A stretch of DNA of 28,524 nucleotides from a virus, in IMG/VR virus record IMGVR_UViG_3300045930_000274, positions 1-28,524 of that record, one strand, 5' to 3'. Below are positions 1 to 27,370 of the stretch, piece after piece; positions within the stretch are counted from its first letter, which is position 1, and each line of letters begins with the position of its first letter. A model generated the notes under the pieces. The model saw nothing but the letters and a program-made list of their open reading frames with translations. It was not told the origin of the DNA and made no database searches. The translations under genes were made by a program, and so were the position numbers.

Positions 1-522
1 GCCGACTTCGGCCACGGCATGTTTGAGCCGGGGAGCTGGAGCCGCATGCGGGAGGCGATTCCGCCCTCGGTCCTCACGGCGGCCGACACCCAGACGAGCG
101 ATATCGCGTGGGGTAACATTCTCGACTTCGCCGGGGCGCACTTGCTCTTTGCGAATGAGCGCGAAGCGCGCTTCGCCGTCGGCGATCGCTGGAGCCCGCT
201 CGAGGCGATTGCGCGCCGGCTCTGGACGCGGGCCCACCTGGCGGGGACCGAAGCCCTGTTTCTCAAGCGCGGCGCCGACGGGCTCTCGGTCTATCACCAG
301 GGCCCAACCCTGCACGTGCCCGCCTGCGCCGTGCAGCCCATCACCGATCCCATCGGCGCGGGCGATGCGCTCATGGCCTACGCCACGCTGACGTATGCGG
401 CGACGAAGGATCTGGCGCTCGCGGCGCGCGTCGGCTCGGCTGCCGCCGCGGTGGCGTGCGCGCAGGAAGGTAATGCGCCGGTGGCGCCGGCAGCGATCCG
501 CGCGCGCTGGTCGGAGTGGTGA
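1..522 (+). CDS. PfkB/ribokinase-family sugar kinase, 3' part
   Basis: The gene is open at the left edge and in frame from base 1; the first visible residues are ADFGHG. The C-terminal half of a PfkB fold is visible: an NEREA segment as in sugar kinases, a beta strand LFLKRGADG, and the family signature DPIGAGDALMAY, whose GAGD supplies the catalytic Asp and anion hole. ADFGHG resembles the matching segment of heptose-7-phosphate kinases (RfaE/HldE kinase domain), but the substrate cannot be fixed from half a protein. The family phosphorylates sugars with ATP in the cytoplasm. Its stop overlaps the next start by GTGA, and that gene abuts the portal gene, so it belongs to the phage head operon. 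A sugar kinase here is unusual. Confidence 0.8.
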   Translation, partial: ADFGHGMFEPGSWSRMREAIPPSVLTAADTQTSDIAWGNILDFAGAHLLFANEREARFAVGDRWSPLEAIARRLWTRAHLAGTEALFLKRGADGLSVYHQGPTLHVPACAVQPITDPIGAGDALMAYATLTYAATKDLALAARVGSAAAAVACAQEGNAPVAPAAIRARWSEW

Positions 523-677
523 GGCTCGATGGCGTCGATAGCGTCATGGTCATCGGCGGGCTCCTCGTGGCCATCGGCACGGCCTGGATCCATCCGCCGA
601 GCGCCGTCATCGTCGTGGGAGTCGAATTGATCGTGGGCGCCATTCTCGTCTCCGCGTCCCGAGCAGGGAGGCAGTAA
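519..677 (+). CDS. small two-helix membrane protein
   Basis: This 52-residue product starts at a GTG that overlaps the kinase stop (GTGA) and ends directly before the portal ATG (TAA then ATG). It has two hydrophobic stretches, about residues 10-23 and 28-45, split by IHPPS, with a short charged tail (RAGRQ), so it is probably a helical hairpin in the inner membrane. I recognise no family. The tight packing and the hydrophobic pattern support a real gene. Holin-like or packaging-linked roles are possible but not shown. Confidence 0.6.
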   Translation: MRLDGVDSVMVIGGLLVAIGTAWIHPPSAVIVVGVELIVGAILVSASRAGRQ

Positions 678-2378
678 ATGGGCCGACTGGTGCAGGGCGC
701 ACGGAGTTACTTCCTCGGGGAGAAATCGCTCCGCGATCCGACGCTCAATCTCTACTTCGGCACGGGCCCGACGGTGGCGGGCACCAGCGTCACGGAGTGG
801 ACGGCGCTGAATTATTCCGCCGTCTGGCAGGCCGTGCGCGCCATCTCGGAGCCCGTCGGCTCGCTCCCGCTGTTTCATTACCGGCGCCTCCAGCCGCGGG
901 GCAAGGACCGGATCACGACGAGTCGGCTGCACCGGCTCATCCACGATCAATTCAATCCCGAAATGACCGCGGTCATCGCGCGCACGACGATGCAGGCCCA
1001 CGTCCTCACGTGGGGCAATGCCTATGCCGAGATCGAGCGCGATCAGCTCGGCCGCCCGCTCGCCCTCTGGGTGCTCACGCCGGATCGCGTCACGCCGGAT
1101 CGGAATAAGGCCGGCGATGTCGTCTACCGCGTCCAGCAGGAAAGCGGCACGGAAGTCATCATCGCTGCGGCCAACATGCTCCACGTGCTCGGCCTGCCCT
1201 TTAACGGCCTGATGGGCTATTCCGTCATCGCCAAGGCGCGGCAGTCCATCGGCCTCGGCACCGCGACGGAAAAGTACGGCGCGCAATTCTTCGGCAACGG
1301 GGCGACCTCAAGCCTCGTGCTCACGCATCCCGGCACGCTGTCGAAGACGGCGAGCGAGAACATCAAGACCTCCGTGCAGAACGCCATCGGCGGCGACAAT
1401 CGCCACCGCCTCTTGATCTTCGAAGAGGGGATGAAGGCCGAAAAGATTTCCATCCCGCCCGATGACGCGCAATTTCTGGAGACGCGGAAATTTCAAGTCC
1501 TCGAAATCGCCCGCTGGTTCAATCTGCCGCCGCACAAGCTGCGCGACCTGGAGCGCGCGACCTACAGCAACATCGAGCAGCAGGCCATCGACTTCGTCAC
1601 CGATACCCTGCGGTACTGGCTCGTCGTCTGGGAGCAAGAGCTCCGGCGCAAGCTGATTCCGGAGCTCGAGTGGAATCAGCAATTCGTCGAGCACCTGATC
1701 GACGGCCTGCTGCGTGGCGATTCGCAGGCCCGCCATACCGCCTACGCCTCGGGCCATCAAAACGGCTACTACTCCATCGACGACATCCGCGAGCTGGAGA
1801 ATCTGAATCCGCTGCCCGATGGCGCCGGGGAAAAGTACTACGTCCAGGTCAACATGGTGCCCGTCGATCGCATCGATGAGCTGGTGGACAAGCAAGTCTC
1901 GACGGCGGCGCCCGCGGATCCCACGCCACTCCCGACGGCGCGGGCCCTGCCGGATCCCGACGCCAGCGCCCGCATGATTGCCGCGCAACGCGCCCTCTTC
2001 GTCGATGCGATGGGACGCATGGTGCGGCGCGAGACGCAAGCGCTGCGGCGGGCCGCGAAGAGCGGCTCGGCCGGCGTGACGCAGTGGCGGGAGGAGTTTT
2101 ATCCGAAGCACGCCGGGATGCTGCGCGATGCACTCTTGCCCGCGGTGTCGTCCCACCTGGCCTATGTGGCGGCCACCACCGGCGCGCAGGAGATCACGCG
2201 CCAGCTCGCCGAGGCCCATATCGCCGAATCGCTCGGAGAGCTCGAGCGCTTGCCCGCCGAGGAATTAGAAAACGCGGTGGATCTCATGGCTCAGCGCTGG
2301 GAAGTCCACCGGCCCGCCGCCCTGGCCGATAGCCTGATGACGGAGGAACTACGCCATGCCCTCACTCGCCCCGCCTGA
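678..2378 (+). CDS. HK97-type phage portal protein
   Basis: This 566-residue protein fits the HK97 gp3-like portal family (Phage_portal). It forms the dodecameric ring at one capsid vertex through which DNA is packaged and ejected. Typical segments are SAVWQAVRAISEPVGSLPL near the N-terminus, GNAYAEIERD at about 115, the clip region TPDRVTPDR, GLMGYSVI, and the wing/stem part with RWFNLPPHKLRDLERATYSN followed by IEQQAIDFV. The C-terminal about 150 residues are helical and more variable. The ATG follows GGGAGGCAGTAA, which gives a good ribosome site. The gene overlaps the protease by 23 bases, a common coupling in this module. Confidence 0.95.
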   Translation: MGRLVQGARSYFLGEKSLRDPTLNLYFGTGPTVAGTSVTEWTALNYSAVWQAVRAISEPVGSLPLFHYRRLQPRGKDRITTSRLHRLIHDQFNPEMTAVIARTTMQAHVLTWGNAYAEIERDQLGRPLALWVLTPDRVTPDRNKAGDVVYRVQQESGTEVIIAAANMLHVLGLPFNGLMGYSVIAKARQSIGLGTATEKYGAQFFGNGATSSLVLTHPGTLSKTASENIKTSVQNAIGGDNRHRLLIFEEGMKAEKISIPPDDAQFLETRKFQVLEIARWFNLPPHKLRDLERATYSNIEQQAIDFVTDTLRYWLVVWEQELRRKLIPELEWNQQFVEHLIDGLLRGDSQARHTAYASGHQNGYYSIDDIRELENLNPLPDGAGEKYYVQVNMVPVDRIDELVDKQVSTAAPADPTPLPTARALPDPDASARMIAAQRALFVDAMGRMVRRETQALRRAAKSGSAGVTQWREEFYPKHAGMLRDALLPAVSSHLAYVAATTGAQEITRQLAEAHIAESLGELERLPAEELENAVDLMAQRWEVHRPAALADSLMTEELRHALTRPA

Positions 2379-2946
2379 CGCGCTCGAGACGCGCTATCAG
2401 CCCGGCCATCTGCGCGTGGCTCTCGGCGACGGCCTGCGCCCCAAGTTGACCGGCCACGCCATCGTGTTCAATGCCCCGAGCGAAACGCTGGGCTTCTTCC
2501 GCGAGCAGATCGCGCCGCAGGCGATCCAGCGCACCTTTGACGAGGGCATCGACGTGCGCGCGCTGGTCGATCACGATCCAGCCAAGATCCTTGGGCGGGT
2601 GAGTGCGCGCACACTCAAGATCGCCGGCGATCCTCACGGGCTCCTGGTGGAGATCGATCCGCCCGATACGACCTACGCGCGCGATGTCCTCGAGTCCGTG
2701 CGCCGCGGCGATCTCAGCGGCATGTCCTTCGCCTTCCGCACGCTCATCGACGAGTGGGACGAATCGGTCGAGCCGCCGATGCGCACCGTGAAGGACATGC
2801 GGATCTCGGAAGTGAGTATCGTGACCTTCCCTGCGTACCCCCAGACCGACGTGGACGTGGCCCAGCGCTCGCTGAGTGCCTATCGCGCGGCCAAGCCCTT
2901 CGTGCCCTCGCTCGCCTTGCGCCGCCGCATGCTGGAGCTGCCGTGA
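2356..2946 (+). CDS. HK97-family prohead protease (U35)
   Basis: At 196 residues it has the usual length for HK97 gp4-like serine proteases, which cut the capsid delta domain and then themselves during maturation. The fold is seen as LTGHAIVFN (31-39), FREQIAPQAI (48-57), LVDHDPAKILGR with the candidate catalytic His73, a GDLSGMSFAF segment with Ser121/Ser124, and SEVSIVTFPAYP (151-162). The last is the family hallmark and includes an acidic residue, Glu152. The start lies inside the portal gene, after GGAGGAACTACGCC. Its stop overlaps the GTG of the glycosyltransferase by GTGA, so the two are translationally coupled. Confidence 0.95.
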   Translation: MPSLAPPDALETRYQPGHLRVALGDGLRPKLTGHAIVFNAPSETLGFFREQIAPQAIQRTFDEGIDVRALVDHDPAKILGRVSARTLKIAGDPHGLLVEIDPPDTTYARDVLESVRRGDLSGMSFAFRTLIDEWDESVEPPMRTVKDMRISEVSIVTFPAYPQTDVDVAQRSLSAYRAAKPFVPSLALRRRMLELP

Positions 2947-4454
2947 GTCAACTCCGCGGCCCGCAAGTCCCGCTGGTGACGCGGCTGGCCGCCGCCGCCT
3001 ACGATCACGCGCTTCGCGACGAGTTTTTTCAGGCCATCGAGTATTTCGATCAGCTCGTGAAGATCCAGCCGCGCGCCAGCTTCTTCATGAGCTACGGCTC
3101 GGCCTTGATGGCCGTCGGGCGCTCCGCGGAGGCGACGGCGATCTATGAGCAGGCGCTCACCGCGCCGCCGGGCTTGCAAGGCTACGAGCGCATGATGGTC
3201 CACGAGAACCTGGTGTTCAGCACCGATCAGATGGACGACACCACGCTCGCGCAGGCGTCGGAACGGCGCAACGATTTCGCGCGGACCTACTTCGATCCCC
3301 TCGTGGCCAAGCCGCGGGCGCCCTACGCCAACACGCTGGATCCCGAGCGCCCGCTGCGCGTCGGCTACGTCGGCGGCGATTTCTCGATGCACTCGGCGAC
3401 GATGGCCTTCGGCGTCGTGCTCATCAATCACACGCCGGCCGTCGAGCCGTTCCTCTACAACACGGCCCGCCCGAATCGGTGGGACGAATTCACCACGGTC
3501 TATTCCCAGCGCTGCACGCTCCGCATGATCGAGCAGGGCCAGCAGATGAGCGATGACGATCTCGCCGAGCTCGTGCGGCGCGATCGGATCGATATCCTCG
3601 TCGATCTCGGGTCATTCAGCAACGGTGGGCGGCTCTCCCTCTTTGCGCTGAAACCGGCGCCCATTCAAATCACCGCGTGGGGCTACGTGATGGGCACGGG
3701 CTTGGAGACGATTGATTACATTTTCGGGGATCCCGTCGCCATGCCGCACCGGCTGCAGCCCTATTACCGCGAGCAGATTTATCACTTGCCGAGCATCATC
3801 CCGTTCAACTACCAGCACTACGCGCCCGAGCCCAACGTCCTCCCGTGTCTGCACAATCAGCCCTTCACCTTCGGCTGTTTCAATCGGGCGGCGAAGATCG
3901 GGGCGAAGACGTTGGCGCTCTGGAAGCAAGTCCTGCACGCGCTGCCGGAGAGCCGACTCATTCTCAAAGAGGGCCAGCTCGGCTATCCCTACCACGCCGA
4001 GCGCATCCTGAAAGCCCTGGAGATCAATCCGCGGCGGGTGATCATCCAGGGGCACTCCGGCCACGCCGATCACCTGGGCGCCTATGGCCAGATCGACCTG
4101 GCCCTCGATCCCTTCCCGATCGCCGGCGGGGTCTCGATGCTCGAGGGGATCGGGCAGGGGGTGCCCGCGCTCATCCGCCGGGATGCGAATCAGGAGCGGG
4201 TCTGCTCCCTGGTCGGGGTGTCAGCGTCGGAGATCCTGGGCCTGTCCGATTTCGTGGCCGATAGCGATGAGGACTACGTGCGGCTGGCGAAGGCGTGGGC
4301 GACGGAGGGCCGGCCGCTCTTGGCCCAATGGCGGATGTACCTGCGGGCGATGCTGCTGAAAAGCCCGATCCACGCCGGCTACGTGCAGGCCGTGGAGGGC
4401 GCCTACCGGGACTTCTGGCGGGAGTACTGCGGCAAGGCCGGATCAGCCGCCTAG
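2943..4454 (+). CDS. SPINDLY/O-GlcNAc-transferase-like glycosyltransferase (GT41)
   Basis: I chose the GTG at 2943 because it overlaps the protease stop by GTGA; the reading frame extends further upstream inside the protease gene. The 503-residue product has one or two TPR-like helix pairs (about 20-90), then the two Rossmann lobes of the OGT/SPY catalytic region (about 138-490). Matching motifs are LRVGYVGGDFSMHS with the conserved His150, DILVDLGSFSNGGRL, PIQITAWGYVMGTG, FGCFNRAAKI with the phosphate-binding Lys318, and LDPFPIAGG...GQGVPAL around 388-410. The family transfers a sugar from a nucleotide donor to Ser/Thr (or Asn in HMW1C-type members) of proteins. Its place between protease and capsid genes suggests a virion target; that is inference. 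Confidence 0.9.
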   Translation: MSQLRGPQVPLVTRLAAAAYDHALRDEFFQAIEYFDQLVKIQPRASFFMSYGSALMAVGRSAEATAIYEQALTAPPGLQGYERMMVHENLVFSTDQMDDTTLAQASERRNDFARTYFDPLVAKPRAPYANTLDPERPLRVGYVGGDFSMHSATMAFGVVLINHTPAVEPFLYNTARPNRWDEFTTVYSQRCTLRMIEQGQQMSDDDLAELVRRDRIDILVDLGSFSNGGRLSLFALKPAPIQITAWGYVMGTGLETIDYIFGDPVAMPHRLQPYYREQIYHLPSIIPFNYQHYAPEPNVLPCLHNQPFTFGCFNRAAKIGAKTLALWKQVLHALPESRLILKEGQLGYPYHAERILKALEINPRRVIIQGHSGHADHLGAYGQIDLALDPFPIAGGVSMLEGIGQGVPALIRRDANQERVCSLVGVSASEILGLSDFVADSDEDYVRLAKAWATEGRPLLAQWRMYLRAMLLKSPIHAGYVQAVEGAYRDFWREYCGKAGSAA

Positions 4455-4691: not shown

Positions 4692-6056
4692 ATGCCGGCA
4701 CATCAGGATCTCGTCGATCAGCGCCACGCCATCGCGCAAGAACTCCGCAAGATCGTGGACAAAGCCACCGCCGAGAAGCGCGATCTGAACGCGGAGGAAA
4801 ACGAGAAGTTCGACCGGCTCCACGGTGAGGATTCGGCGCTTCGCGCCAAGCTGGACAAGCTAACTCGCCTGGAGCAGATCGAGCGCGAGCTCGGCGAGAG
4901 CCGCGGCCGGCAAGCCGAGCCGGCGAAGCCGTGGACGCCCGAGCCGACCGTGCCTGCACGCCGGGAGACCTCCCAGGATCGCTATGCCTCCGGGCTCGAG
5001 GGCTTCCGGACGTGGCTCCTGGCCGGATCGACCAAGCGCAACACGATCACCGCCGAGCGCATCGACGCCGCCCGGCGGGTAGGCTTCGATCCCGATAGCC
5101 GGATCGTCGATCTCGAAATGCCCGTCATCGTGCCGCATTCGCTCGAGGAAGCCCGCAGTCTCAAATACGACGCGGTGGACTACCGGGCGATGGCGGTGGG
5201 CTCGGCCGGCCTCGGCGGCTACTCCGTCCCCGATGAGCTGATGCGCCCGCTCGAGGTCGCCCTGCTCCAATTCGGCGGCATGCGCACGGTGGCCACCATC
5301 CTGCGCACCGATACCGGCGCTTCGCTGCCGATCCCGATGACGAACGACACCGCCAACAAGGGCGAGATCATCGCGGAGAACGCGACCGTCAATCAGCAGG
5401 ATCTGACGCTCACCCAGCTCACCCTCGGCGCCTACAAGTATTCCTCGAAGATGGTGCTCGTCTCCGTCGAGCTCATGCAGGACAACGCCATCAATCTGGC
5501 GTCCTTCCTCGGCGAAGCGCTGGGCACCCGGATCGGCCGCATCACCAACGATCACTGGACGACCGGCACCGGCACCAGCCAGCCGTGGGGCATCGTCACC
5601 CGGGCGACCACCGGCAAGGCGTCGGCGACCTCGCAGCAGACCAGCGTGATCTTCGACGACCTGGTGGACCTCGAGCACTCCGTGGATCCGGCCTACCGGC
5701 CCGGGGCGCGCTTTATGATGCACGACAGCACGCTCAAGGTGATCAAGAAGCTGAAAGACACGAGCGGCCGGCCGCTCTTCCTGCCGGGCCTGGCCTCCAC
5801 GAATCCCGACACGATCCTCGGCTATCCCTTCGTCATCAATCAGTCGATGGCCGCGGTGGGGACGACGGCGAAGTGCATTCTCTTCGGCGATCTGTCGAAG
5901 TACATCATCCGCGACGTGCGCGGGATCACGCTGCTGCGGCTCGATGAGCGCTTCGCGGAATTCCATCAGACCGCCTTCCTGGCCTTTGCGCGCTTCGACG
6001 GCGATCTGATGAACGCCGGCACCAACCCGGTCAAGTTCTTCGTCAACGTGGCGTAG
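4692..6056 (+). CDS. HK97-fold major capsid protein with N-terminal delta domain
   Basis: This 454-residue protein matches the HK97 gp5-like family (Phage_capsid). Residues about 1-80 are charged and coiled-coil (HAIAQELRKIVDKAT to LEQIERELGE), the scaffold-like delta domain the upstream protease would remove. The shell fold follows from about 170: GGYSVPDELMRPL, VATILRTDTGASLPIP, ENATVNQQDLTLTQLTLGAYKYSSKMVLVSVELMQD split over two strands, and the C-terminal TILGYPFVINQSM and YIIRDVRGITLLRLDERFAEF. The ATG follows AAAGGGCGGCC. It sits behind a 237-base non-coding leader with its own promoter-like site, which fits the high expression a capsid needs. Confidence 0.96.
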   Translation: MPAHQDLVDQRHAIAQELRKIVDKATAEKRDLNAEENEKFDRLHGEDSALRAKLDKLTRLEQIERELGESRGRQAEPAKPWTPEPTVPARRETSQDRYASGLEGFRTWLLAGSTKRNTITAERIDAARRVGFDPDSRIVDLEMPVIVPHSLEEARSLKYDAVDYRAMAVGSAGLGGYSVPDELMRPLEVALLQFGGMRTVATILRTDTGASLPIPMTNDTANKGEIIAENATVNQQDLTLTQLTLGAYKYSSKMVLVSVELMQDNAINLASFLGEALGTRIGRITNDHWTTGTGTSQPWGIVTRATTGKASATSQQTSVIFDDLVDLEHSVDPAYRPGARFMMHDSTLKVIKKLKDTSGRPLFLPGLASTNPDTILGYPFVINQSMAAVGTTAKCILFGDLSKYIIRDVRGITLLRLDERFAEFHQTAFLAFARFDGDLMNAGTNPVKFFVNVA

Positions 6057-18603: not shown

Positions 18604-19131
18604 ATGGCCAGCACCGGCAACGTCTTCGTCGGGACGGGCGAGAACAACGCCGGTATCGGCGCAACGGCGTGGACGAACCCCGGCAATATCACCTCCGACA
18701 ATGCGACGGATGCCTCATGCAACGCCGCCGCGACCTCGCAGTACCTCGTCGGGCGTAATTGCGGGTTTGCGATTCCCACGGACGCCACGATCGTCGGCGT
18801 GACGGTGCGGATCGAAGCCGCCGAAACCTCGGCCGGCTCCGAAACGCTTAACGGGCGCTTGCAGGATGAAACGGGGGCGCTGACCGGGAGCGGCAAGACG
18901 GCCAGCATCGGCGGCACGACGCCGACCGTGTACACCTACGGGGGCACCGCGGACCTCTGGGGCGCCACGCTGACGCCCGCGATCGTCAATGACGCGGACT
19001 TCGGCGTGCGCTTTTGGTTCACGACCGCGCACAACATGACGGTCGATTACGTCACGATCGCCATCGAGTATTCCACGCCGACGCCTGCCGAATTCTGGGT
19101 GCCCGAGCTGCAGACCGCCATCGCCCCATGA
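18604..19131 (+). CDS. beta-rich virion protein
   Basis: The ATG at 18604 begins 1 base after the preceding stop. The 175-residue protein shows a beta-sandwich pattern typical of phage-borne carbohydrate-binding-like domains: CGFAIPTDATIVGVTVRIEAAET, then LWGATLTPAIVNDADFGVRF, ending YVTIAIEYS. The same 'IPTDATIVGV.V....' plan occurs in many phage structural proteins of unknown role. It overlaps the repeat protein (ATGA). Confidence 0.7.
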   Translation: MASTGNVFVGTGENNAGIGATAWTNPGNITSDNATDASCNAAATSQYLVGRNCGFAIPTDATIVGVTVRIEAAETSAGSETLNGRLQDETGALTGSGKTASIGGTTPTVYTYGGTADLWGATLTPAIVNDADFGVRFWFTTAHNMTVDYVTIAIEYSTPTPAEFWVPELQTAIAP

Positions 19132-20399
19132 TCAACCGCCGCGTGCCGCGCCCCATCGAGGAGCCGCGGCTCACGCGGTCGATCCTCTTTGAAGTCGTCC
19201 CGATCGGCGTCGGCGGGCCCGTCCCGACGCCGCAAGAATTCTGGCAGCCGCTCCGCGTCAAGGCCGAGGCCCCGACGCTCACGCCTCCGCTCACGACGAC
19301 GGTCCTGCTCGGCGAGTACGTCTATCCCGTCCCCGAGCCGCCCGTCCCGATCCGCGTAGACATGGCCCCACTGCGGGCGCGCTATGAAGCGCCGCCCATT
19401 CGCTATGCGCCCGTGCTGCTCGTGGGCCTCGTCGAGACGGTGCCGCTGCCGATCGATGTCGTCACCGCGCCGCTCACAAATGCCTCACAGATCCTCGAGC
19501 CGATTCCGCGCGCCTCCCGGATCCTCACGCCGCCGGCCGTCGCCGTCGCGGCGCCGGTCAACCTGCTCACCCAGCAGCGCCCGCTGGCCCGGCCGATTCC
19601 GCCACCGATCCCGGCGCCCGTCCAGCGCCTCGTTACGGCCCCGATCCCCGACCGGCACCCGAGCCCGCTGCTGCTGACGGGGCGCATTGCGCCCGAGCCG
19701 ATCCAGGCACCGCGGCCGCGGCTGGTCGTCGTGCCGGTGGCCGATATCATCAACCCGCTGGATCTGCTGCGGCAGCAGCGCCCGCACGCCGGGATCATCC
19801 GGACGCCCGTCCTGGTGCGCCCGCCGGCGCTGGTGGCCGTCCCTGTCCCGGATCGCCACCCGAGCCCGCTCCTGCTCCAGATCCCGCGGCGGCTCGAGGA
19901 ACGGGCCCCGCTGCCGAGCTCGCGCCTGGTCGTCGTGCCGGTGGCCGATGCGCCCGTAGCGCCGCCGCCCGCGCTCGAATTCCTGGCGCCACGGCAGGCC
20001 GTGCGGCCGATCCCGGCCCGTATCACCGCCGGTGCCAGCCGCCTCGTCACGGTGCGGCCGACGCTGAATCTGCTGACCACCCAGGCCCCGCGGCAGGGGA
20101 TCCTGCGGGCGGTCCCCGCCGAGGCCGGCTATCGCCCCAGCCGCTATATCAGCATCGTCCCAGCCGATCGCATCCCGCCCGTGCTCCTGCTCATGGTGCG
20201 CCCGCAGCCGGTCTATGTGACGATGCCGCGGCCTTCTCAGCTCGTCGTCGTTCCCGAGATGGCCGAGATCATCACCGGCCCGCTCAATGTGTTCAAAGTG
20301 CCGCCGCATCGGCGCGGCTTCGCCAGCCCGCGCAATGAACGCCAAGGCTTTCCCAGCCAGATCCCGCGCCGCCACTTCCCGGCGCCCCGACGGAGATAA
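19128..20399 (+). CDS. proline-rich repeat protein
   Basis: Start ATG 19128 overlaps the previous stop (ATGA). The 423-residue protein is extremely rich in Pro, Arg, Val, Leu and Ala, with no Cys. The middle is built of about seven repeats of 31-39 residues, each opening with a strand such as RLVTAPIPD, RLVVVPVAD, ALVAVPVPD, RYISIVPAD or QLVVVPEMAE and followed by 'P..LLL' and a basic Pro turn. Two pairs of units repeat at about 67-68 codon spacing. No family is recognised. It is likely a rod-like, non-globular tail component or a chaperone-like scaffold. Confidence 0.7.
   Translation: MINRRVPRPIEEPRLTRSILFEVVPIGVGGPVPTPQEFWQPLRVKAEAPTLTPPLTTTVLLGEYVYPVPEPPVPIRVDMAPLRARYEAPPIRYAPVLLVGLVETVPLPIDVVTAPLTNASQILEPIPRASRILTPPAVAVAAPVNLLTQQRPLARPIPPPIPAPVQRLVTAPIPDRHPSPLLLTGRIAPEPIQAPRPRLVVVPVADIINPLDLLRQQRPHAGIIRTPVLVRPPALVAVPVPDRHPSPLLLQIPRRLEERAPLPSSRLVVVPVADAPVAPPPALEFLAPRQAVRPIPARITAGASRLVTVRPTLNLLTTQAPRQGILRAVPAEAGYRPSRYISIVPADRIPPVLLLMVRPQPVYVTMPRPSQLVVVPEMAEIITGPLNVFKVPPHRRGFASPRNERQGFPSQIPRRHFPAPRRR
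19630..20310 (+). repeat. degenerate about 33-codon tandem repeats
   Basis: Within the Pro-rich gene, the codons for PDRHPSPLLL occur at 19647 and 19848 (201 bases apart), and those for LVVVPVAD at 19722 and 19926 (204 bases apart). The half-period units diverge more. The periodicity is best seen at protein level and suggests expansion by unequal recombination followed by drift. Confidence 0.7.
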
Positions 20400-23133: not shown

Positions 23134-23907
23134 ATGTCCACCGCTGTCGCCACCACCGAGGCGCCGATCCATTACAGCGCAAGCGAGATTGCTTTGGTCA
23201 AGAAGACCATTGCGGCGGGCGCCACGGACGAAGAACTAAAGCTCTTCCTCTTCGACTGCAAGCGCCAAGGCGTGCATCCGCTCGATCGGCTCATCCATTT
23301 CAGCAAGCGCGGCGGGAAGTACACGCCGATCACGTCCATCGACTTCATGCGCCTGCGGGCGGATGACACCGGCGTGCATGCCGGGACGGACGATCCCGTC
23401 TACGACCTGCCCGAGGATAGCGACAAGCTCATCCGGTGGGCGAAGGTCACCGTATACAAGTTCGTCCAGAGTCAGAAGGTCGCCTTCACGGCCACGGCGC
23501 GCTGGTCGGAGTACGCGCCGCCGGGCAGCGAAGGCTTCATGTGGAAGAAGATGCCGCGCCTGATGCTCGGCAAGTGCGCCGAGGCGCTGGCGCTGCGCAA
23601 AGCCTTCCCGAAACAACTGCACGGCATCTATGAGCGCGCCGAGATGGACCAGGCCGAGCGCGCCACGCCGGAGCCCGAAGCGCCGCCGCGCGTGGAGCCC
23701 GCGCCGCAGGAGCTCCTGACGCTCGAAGCCGATTCCAATCCGCTGGCCGAGGTCAAGGCGGGCCTGGTCACGCGCATCGAGAAATTCACCTTGGCCAAGA
23801 TCACGTTGCTGATGCACCGGCTCGATCTGGGTGAGGGCGAGTGGCAAAACCTGGACGTGGCCGCAATGGATCTGCTCGCGAAGAGTCTGGAGGGCAGTAA
23901 GAAATGA
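23134..23907 (+). CDS. Red-beta/Bet-family single-strand annealing protein
   Basis: A strong ribosome site (GAGGAGG, 7 bases before ATG) opens this 257-residue gene. It matches the Bet family (phage RecT/Red-beta group): GATDEELKLFLFDCKRQGVHPLDRLIHFSKRGGKYTPI split over strands, IDFMRLRADDTG, FTATARWSEYA, and the hallmark KMPRLMLGKCAEALALRKAFP followed by LHGIYERAEMDQAE. The protein forms rings on single-stranded DNA and anneals complementary strands for recombination-dependent replication. Its partner is normally an exonuclease; the small PD-(D/E)XK protein at 25200 is a weak candidate. The C-terminal about 70 residues are Pro-rich then helical. Confidence 0.93.
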   Translation: MSTAVATTEAPIHYSASEIALVKKTIAAGATDEELKLFLFDCKRQGVHPLDRLIHFSKRGGKYTPITSIDFMRLRADDTGVHAGTDDPVYDLPEDSDKLIRWAKVTVYKFVQSQKVAFTATARWSEYAPPGSEGFMWKKMPRLMLGKCAEALALRKAFPKQLHGIYERAEMDQAERATPEPEAPPRVEPAPQELLTLEADSNPLAEVKAGLVTRIEKFTLAKITLLMHRLDLGEGEWQNLDVAAMDLLAKSLEGSKK

Positions 23908-26371: not shown

Positions 26372-26525
26372 CCAATTGTGACCGAAGCCATGCGGCATAT
26401 CGCTCTGGATAGGCGCGCCGCCAAGCGGCAAATCCATCTGGATCTAGGCACTTAGCACACTCGCAGAATTCTTCATCGCAGGGGCGATTGTCCGCGCCGC
26501 AAGACCAGCAGGGCCGCAGGCGCAT
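26361..26525 (-). CDS. 54-residue zinc protein coupled to antirepressor
   Basis: On the minus strand, an ATG at 26525 overlaps the antirepressor stop (TGATG) and opens a 54-residue frame ending at 26361. It reads MRLRPCWSCGADNRPCDEEF then CECAKC and a helix with FAAWRRAYPERYAAWLRS. Six Cys suggest a zinc finger or two sites. The coupling and amino-acid pattern argue for a real gene despite the size. Confidence 0.6.
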   Translation of the reverse strand: MRLRPCWSCGADNRPCDEEFCECAKCLDPDGFAAWRRAYPERYAAWLRSQLVTR

Positions 26526-27370
26526 CAGAACGCGAATCCCATTTGCTGATCCGCGTCAATGCGTGGCGGCTTCGCCCGCATGGTCAAATTACGGAGTTGT
26601 CGGGCGAGGCAGTCCCGCTTCTCGCCAGTCGCCGTCGCGAGTTGCAGGAGCATGATCAGGATATCTTGCCGAAGGGCGACTCGGTTGGAGAGCGCATACA
26701 CCCGCTGCAGCCACGTCATCGTATCGCGGAACGCTGCGGCATCGAGGCCAAACTGGGCTAACGTCAGCCCATATTCACGCAGGGCCATGATGATCTGGTC
26801 TCTCGCTCGGCTAATCTCATCCAACAGCAGATGCACCACGTCGCGGCCTTCGATTTGGGCGTCCCGCTTCAGATTTTCGAGTGTGAGCTCAGCTTCCCGG
26901 GCAGTGGTCGGGCCTTCAAGCGGAAGCTTGGGCGGCAGGACATCAGCAATCAGCATTTGATCATGCGCTGTCGAATTCGGACCAAGGAACTTGGCGGCGA
27001 GTACGGCGCGGATAGTCGTGAAACATTCGCGGCGGTAGAGCTTGAGTTTTTCGGGATTCTTTGTGACTCGCCGGTGCCCGATCGTATAGAGGAAAACCGG
27101 GAGCACATCGAGCGGCATCGCGATGACCTGCCGGCCTTGTTTCCCGTCGCGCCCCTGGATGGTTATAACAACCATGGTTGCGGCGAGCTCCTCGTCGCGC
27201 TTGATGCGCTGCAATTGCGAGGACCAATCGACGCCCAAATTTTCCGCCACGGTCGACGGCAGAAATAGCGTTGCCTCCACCGTGGTGCCGGGGATCACTT
27301 CAAGCCGGTCACCGTGAAATTCGATCACCTCAACTTGCGGGGTTCCCCACGGGAATGCATTGGCCGTCAT
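26525..27370 (-). CDS. P22-type phage antirepressor (AR N-domain)
   Basis: The 281-residue protein has the N-terminal P22_AR_N-type domain: VIEFHGDRLEVIPG, ATLFLPSTVAENLGVDWSSQ, LQRIKRDEELAATMVVI, QVIAMPLDVLPVFLYTIGHRRV and EKLKLYRRECFTTI. The C-terminal 130 residues are helical and without a known domain. GGAGG lies 8 bases before the ATG at 27370. In P22 such a protein binds and disables the repressor. The repressor here lacks an autoprotease domain, so this gene probably drives induction. Its base use is less GC-rich than the tail genes. Confidence 0.85.
   Translation of the reverse strand: MTANAFPWGTPQVEVIEFHGDRLEVIPGTTVEATLFLPSTVAENLGVDWSSQLQRIKRDEELAATMVVITIQGRDGKQGRQVIAMPLDVLPVFLYTIGHRRVTKNPEKLKLYRRECFTTIRAVLAAKFLGPNSTAHDQMLIADVLPPKLPLEGPTTAREAELTLENLKRDAQIEGRDVVHLLLDEISRARDQIIMALREYGLTLAQFGLDAAAFRDTMTWLQRVYALSNRVALRQDILIMLLQLATATGEKRDCLARQLRNLTMRAKPPRIDADQQMGFAF

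Follow-up and report, generated by a model that had tools for sequence, protein, structure and literature searches.

Why does a tailed phage carry a sugar kinase and a protein glycosyltransferase among the genes that build its head? The window, by which we mean the whole 28,524-base virus record analyzed here, begins inside a PfkB kinase gene that leads into the portal gene, and it holds a GT41-family enzyme between the prohead protease and the major capsid protein (MCP). A first-pass annotation of the sequence had read this arrangement as a phage that makes or diverts an activated sugar and glycosylates a head protein or a host protein, and the comparative evidence assembled below supports that reading. 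We propose, as a fairly likely account, that a two-part glycosylation system is split over two slots of the head operon and that the GT41 enzyme O-glycosylates a head protein, most likely the MCP.

Head operon and left flank of the genome

The gene calls of the first-pass annotation hold up in profile searches (Table 1): a PfkB kinase 3' part is coupled through a small membrane gene to the portal gene, and a SPINDLY-like transferase lies between protease and capsid. The kinase part matches positions 175-297 of the 302 in PF00294, GAGD signature included. Both sugar genes had been described as joined by GTGA overlaps; this is correct for the protease-GT41 junction, but the membrane gene, starting at GTG, shares 7 bases with the end of the kinase gene (GTGGTGA) and finishes in a TAA directly next to the portal ATG. 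The GT41 and MCP genes are separated by 237 bases. All of these identifications are far from chance level; the 53-residue membrane gene may be a general phage gene that stands outside the sugar system. Elsewhere the window encodes a RecT recombinase and a P22_AR_N antirepressor-type protein (23134-23907 and 26525-27370 (-)), from which the phage may be temperate or kin of temperate phages, and in the tail region (19014-20399) there is a proline-rich repetitive frame with VPVADRHPSPLLL-like repeats and no family match.

The left flank comes from a twin IMG/VR record, 3300045944_000260 (L003; 36,160 bases), which is circularly permuted relative to the window, 100% identical to it over 11,143 bases and 99.9% identical over the first 1,477 bases of the window. 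L003 fills the 7,355-base gap from window end to window start, giving a genome of ~35.9 kb. Whether a nucleotidyltransferase or other sugar genes adjoin on the left had been raised by the first-pass annotation, and L003 yields such a nucleotidyltransferase together with further sugar genes. The cluster runs contiguously with the portal gene, and most of its genes overlap or abut.

The twin records differ at the portal. At the end of L003 (9478-9589, compared with window 1478-1590) the portal frame is broken after DDAQFLE by an intein-like start (CVVPRTLFTMADGTRRAVESLRPGDEV...) that is absent from the window portal; the two ends of L003 share 172 bases at 99%. This points to a mixture of strains, some carrying a portal intein and others lacking it. 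Portal frames in six related contigs (L116, L117, L118, L119, L146 and L147) are 725-921 residues long as against 566 here, the excess being an extra domain or an intein.

Table 1. Features of the head operon and the adjoining sugar cluster (window positions unless prefixed L003)
Feature	Position	Strand	Evidence
TerL	L003:687-2303
HNH	L003:2640-3179
DegT aminotransferase	L003:3143-4243		2.5e-83
NAD-dependent epimerase/dehydratase (SDR)	L003:4240-5091		4.7e-45
E1-alpha-like (transketolase-like/TPP half)	L003:5078-5644		part of phrog_34187
E1-beta-like (transketolase-like/TPP half)	L003:5732-6271		part of phrog_34187
SIS isomerase	L003:6268-6813
GNAT-fold protein, 147 aa	L003:6810-7253		phrog_24928; AF2 model
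HldC-like nucleotidyltransferase	L003:7247-7672		TIGR02199 4e-27, under cut-off
HldA-like kinase, whole, 287 aa	L003:7659-8522		TIGR02198 3.9e-22, under cut-off
HldA-like PfkB sugar kinase, 3' part	1..522	+	PF00294 3e-18
Small membrane protein between kinase and portal, 53 aa	516..677	+	phrog_502 'membrane protein' 1.2e-5
Portal protein, right border of sugar-cluster slot	678..2378	+	PF04860 3e-100
Prohead protease S78, left border of GT41 slot	2356..2946	+	PF04586 7e-46
GT41 (SPINDLY/OGT-type) glycosyltransferase, short N-terminal TPR-like helical region	2943..4454	+	PF13844 1.6e-28; 7y4i 7e-48; AF2 + Foldseek TM 0.86; His150 and Lys318 invariant
HK97-type MCP, proposed acceptor	4692..6056	+	PF05065 1e-62; r 0.86-0.91 between MCP and GT41 distances

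A GT41 enzyme with a short TPR part

Judged by sequence and predicted structure, GT41 membership of the 503-residue protein is firm. It scores 99.7 bits against PF13844 (curated cut-off, 25), and phmmer aligns its residues 124-497 with SPINDLY, a protein O-fucosyltransferase (7y4i), and matches the Thermobaculum OGT (5djs) at 2e-46. The structure prediction suggested by the first-pass annotation gave an AF2 model (pLDDT 83, pTM 0.84) with a GT-B fold and N-terminal TPR helices, the TPR matches being weak by sequence; its best solved match in Foldseek is again SPINDLY, with the TM-score taken by query length, and 5djs follows with a TMt of 0.82. His150 and Lys318, constant across 11 sequences from the slot between protease and capsid (the head slot), align with the His and Lys of SPINDLY and OGT, and E401 lies at the OGT Asp position, which is D or E among head-slot relatives. 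The enzyme thus shares fold, TPR-type helices, the His and Lys, and the acidic residue with SPINDLY and with bacterial OGTs such as 5djs and XcOGT; it differs from them in the shortness of its TPR part (~110 residues) and in being encoded in a phage head operon. Its predicted function is sugar transfer from a nucleotide donor to protein.

How rare is such a gene set? PHROGs contains no family for this GT41, tblastn of the GT41 and kinase proteins against 50,697 phage records returned zero matches, and single-protein scans of IMG/VR with each of them retrieved the twin record only. Relatives were reached with alignments: E1-alpha-like relatives occur in 532 IMG/VR contigs and GT41 relatives in 62. 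Among environmental viruses the parts are therefore commoner than the first-pass annotation supposed, although GT41 goes unmatched in the phage records. The literature searched contains no paper that joins phage-encoded enzymes and GT41.

The sugar cluster and its product

What sugar might the cluster make? The enzyme classes fit formation of a ketose phosphate, isomerization, activation at C1 and tailoring. ADP-heptose is the obvious model for the product; the classes recur in the ADP-heptose pathway (GmhA, HldA/HldE, HldC) and among the viral heptose enzymes that Tang et al. described. We use the heptose label tentatively. All of the NCBIfam equivalog cut-offs for HldA, HldC and GmhA are missed (TIGR02198, 78.8 against 345; TIGR02199, 94.8 against 181.5; TIGR00441, 53.7 against 209.5). 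The SIS protein lacks the GmhA catalytic residues, which we take to be Glu65 and His180 in E. coli numbering: the Glu65 position is Asp in the phage set and in a Comamonas homolog, and the His180 position is not His in this phage. The kinase IGAGD and the nucleotidyltransferase HPGH (HxGH motif) are both present, but the phage kinases are ~28 residues shorter than their HldE counterpart. The heptose nucleotidyltransferase motif (F/L)xxGxSTT (PMC11461863) is not kept, this phage having EVVFASTR. We recognized no phosphatase among the cluster genes, and none was reported for the viral heptose enzymes (PMC11461863). Because of the missed cut-offs, the SIS residues, the kinase gap and the lost motif, we withdrew an initial identification as ADP-heptose in favor of "heptose-like"; the comparison stops short of placing these proteins in the ADP-heptose pathway.

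Two features of the cluster extend beyond the heptose model. The E1-alpha-like and E1-beta-like proteins together correspond to phrog_34187, a single protein in cyanophages, and the E1-alpha-like relatives of that family constitute a large, little-described viral TPP enzyme family. Many of the 532 contigs (the L020-L099 set) encode the TPP halves as separate genes, sometimes several kilobases apart. The 147-residue protein has a GNAT fold in its AF2 model, with phage Mu Mom (8bv8) placed 12th among general GNATs (E ~4e-3), and it is a candidate sugar N-acyltransferase or Mom-like DNA modifier; searches of its relatives did not demonstrate that they travel with sugar clusters. An N-acylated amino sugar would fit the presence of an aminotransferase alongside a GNAT-fold protein.

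Two slots, occupied or empty

The 62 viral GT41 contigs carry 61 proteins in 53 clusters at 90% identity. With flanking genes called by profile searches and 90% clusters counted as distinct contigs, the protease gene is followed at once, in the same orientation, by GT41 in 15 (the window, L110, L112, L116, L117, L118, L119, L122, L123, L127, L130, L143, L146, L147 and L168), and MCP comes next wherever the contig reaches. Four of these phages have Hld-type clusters: this one, L110, L112 and the phage of L146. The first-pass annotation had staked its reading against the kinase and transferase being scattered through unrelated places in all relatives, and these two recurrences are not such a scatter. 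The cluster lies in the TerL-portal interval in three phages and upstream of TerL in the fourth. In L110 and L112, whose MCPs are 68% and GT41s 51-55% identical to those of this phage, the order upstream of the portal is SDR-HldC-HldA-SIS-radical SAM-E1a-E1b, with TerL on the far side in L110. The phage of L146 has, just upstream of TerL, an SDR, an HldC-HldA fusion, an SIS protein, transketolase N and C halves that make up a true transketolase pair, methyltransferases and a zinc alcohol dehydrogenase.

Not every occupied head slot comes with a cluster. L116 (43 kb) and L119 (47 kb), both of them long head-slot contigs, show neither a nucleotidyltransferase nor an E1 gene of this kind; their donor would therefore have to be supplied by the host or in some other way, and slot 1 (TerL-portal) is separable from slot 2 (protease-MCP). 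The portal relatives L007 and L008 have no GT41, a protease-MCP spacing of 139-207 bases, and overlapping TerL and portal genes. Both gene sets are therefore cargo in defined slots, occupied or empty. Another nine viral GT41s have E1/Hld neighbors but sit apart from head genes.

Bacterial relatives and the flagellin parallel

The best bacterial GT41s are ~38% identical to the phage enzyme, and a prophage search of the best 79 bacterial GT41 loci turned up none with a portal, protease or MCP gene. In a Comamonas MAG, locus L183 has the order radical SAM-SDR-SIS-HldC/HldA-E1a-E1b-TPR-GT41, followed by flagellin-flagellin-FliD; its radical SAM, SDR and SIS proteins are 49-52% identical to counterparts in the phage contigs L023 and L112. 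Five other bacterial GT41 loci contain flagellin, and SPINDLY-type GT41s are found by flagellin genes in enterobacterial flagellin-glycosylation islands, where DegT aminotransferases are common (PMC4875605). In these Comamonas and flagellin-island loci the cellular cassette adjoins one self-assembling structural protein, and the viral version adjoins another. Four Magnetococcales contigs (L179, L180, L199 and L200) have up to five tandem GT41 genes.

A close functional parallel is FlmG of Caulobacter, a soluble TPR/GT-B enzyme that glycosylates flagellins bound through its TPR domain (PMC7591256). Both systems combine such an enzyme with dedicated sugar-synthesis genes and a self-assembling acceptor, the acceptor being only predicted in the phage. 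FlmG has a flagellin acceptor and a pseudaminic acid donor, whereas the phage version has an MCP neighbor, next to GT41 in all head-slot contigs of sufficient length, and sugar genes of the Hld/E1 type.

Head protein or host protein?

In a quick maximum-likelihood tree of 91 GT41s (SH-aLRT supports, without bootstraps), 14 head-slot rows fall within a 23-row all-viral group (support 93; 95 for a 21-row subset) that includes zero bacterial rows, and a single clade (100) unites the GT41s of this phage, L110 and L112. For 13 head-slot phages, the correlation between GT41 and MCP distances is 0.86, rising to 0.91 with full-length MCPs. The corresponding values with portal or protease are 0.22-0.39 (protease 0.39, portal 0.24), and MCP-protease is 0.36. 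A downstream connector gene also tracks GT41 (r 0.70, seven phages); linkage may therefore account for part of the GT41-MCP covariation. We had expected acceptor MCPs to be enriched in Ser/Thr, and no enrichment is visible when MCPs of GT41 phages are compared with those of GT41-free relatives.

The same data bear on a rather unlikely alternative, in which GT41 acts on a host protein, such as flagellin, pilin or some other factor of surface or defense, blocking superinfection or reprogramming the cell, with the head operon only a late-expressed insertion site. The flagellin genes beside bacterial GT41s would fit such a target, as would phage GT41s away from head genes, often beside an E1/Hld cluster (L121, L132, L135, L141, L144, L145 and L158). 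However, the slot right before MCP is kept although head-slot GT41s are only 33-55% identical to this one, and GT41 distances follow those of MCP much more closely than those of portal or protease. Taken with synteny and the flagellin parallel, the covariation favors a head protein over a host protein.

A different role for slot 1 would be remodeling of host LPS or surface glycans, as proposed for cyanophages, with no supply of donor to GT41. Heptose is an LPS core sugar, and in S-SM2 and P-TIM68, two cyanophages, a related E1/kinase/nucleotidyltransferase/isomerase set accompanies several other glycosyltransferases. The usual interpretation of sugar genes in cyanophages is LPS modification (PMC9602691). 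Here, however, no other glycosyltransferase, flippase or ligase was recognized among the genes scanned, and four head-slot phages and a flagellin locus combine a similar set with GT41, so that we regard this role as distinctly improbable. Very improbable indeed is that the two sets are unrelated morons in permissive head-operon gaps: the empty slots of close relatives and the GT41s of L116 and L119 with no detectable cluster agree with it, but four head-slot phages pair GT41 with different cluster forms, nine more viral GT41s have E1/Hld genes alongside, and the Comamonas locus contains both sets.

Proposed mechanism and implications

We return to the proposed two-slot glycosylation system. 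Its genes and their families, the GT41 fold with its active-site residues, and the recurring placement are observations; the flow of substrate, the sugar, the acceptor and the timing are inferred. In slot 1, the TPP enzyme pair, SIS protein, HldA-like kinase and HldC-like nucleotidyltransferase would make an activated, NDP-linked sugar, probably heptose-related, which the epimerase/dehydratase, the DegT aminotransferase and possibly the GNAT-fold protein would modify. In slot 2, the cytoplasmic GT41 would attach the sugar to Ser/Thr residues in a head protein, the MCP being the likeliest, during head building. The repeated layout and the bacterial gene set beside flagellin make it probable that this phage coats its own capsid with sugar, by an undescribed route.

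Phage virion glycosylation is itself known. In the excerpts of PMC12363180 and PMC11256854, both of which cite Freeman 2023, mycobacteriophages (Che8, Corndog and Myrna) decorate capsid and tail-tube proteins with their own glycosyltransferases, which in the F1 phage Maravista are encoded near the genome 3' end, outside the head operon (PMC11256854). Those excerpts report neither a GT41 nor a linked nucleotide-sugar cluster; the phage described here has both, and relative to them its toolset is new. Protein heptosylation likewise has a precedent in the autotransporter heptosyltransferases TibC/AAH, which modify Ser from ADP-heptose (PMC4358343); they belong to another enzyme family than the phage GT41 and have another acceptor, and TibC is absent from the GT41 sequence matches.

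More tentatively, we entertain a broader picture that is somewhat less likely than not to hold: self-contained capsid glycosylation in small tailed phages, in which the phage's own NDP-heptose-like sugar, possibly amino- or acyl-modified, is passed to the MCP by a GT41 using a donor new to its family, with the same kit serving bacterial flagellin as one shared modular cassette for structural proteins. A point against the proposed system is that, to our knowledge, ADP-sugars do not serve as donors for any known GT41.

Activity is known for viral heptose-type enzymes, whose role is described as unsolved (PMC11461863, PMC11573728); the link to a capsid-operon GT41 offers them a direct, testable one. 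If our proposal is true, virion glycosylation would extend beyond mycobacteriophages to a new enzyme family, phages and bacterial flagellin glycosylation would have a cassette in common, and the head operon would supply a capsid-tagging enzyme with its acceptor gene next door.
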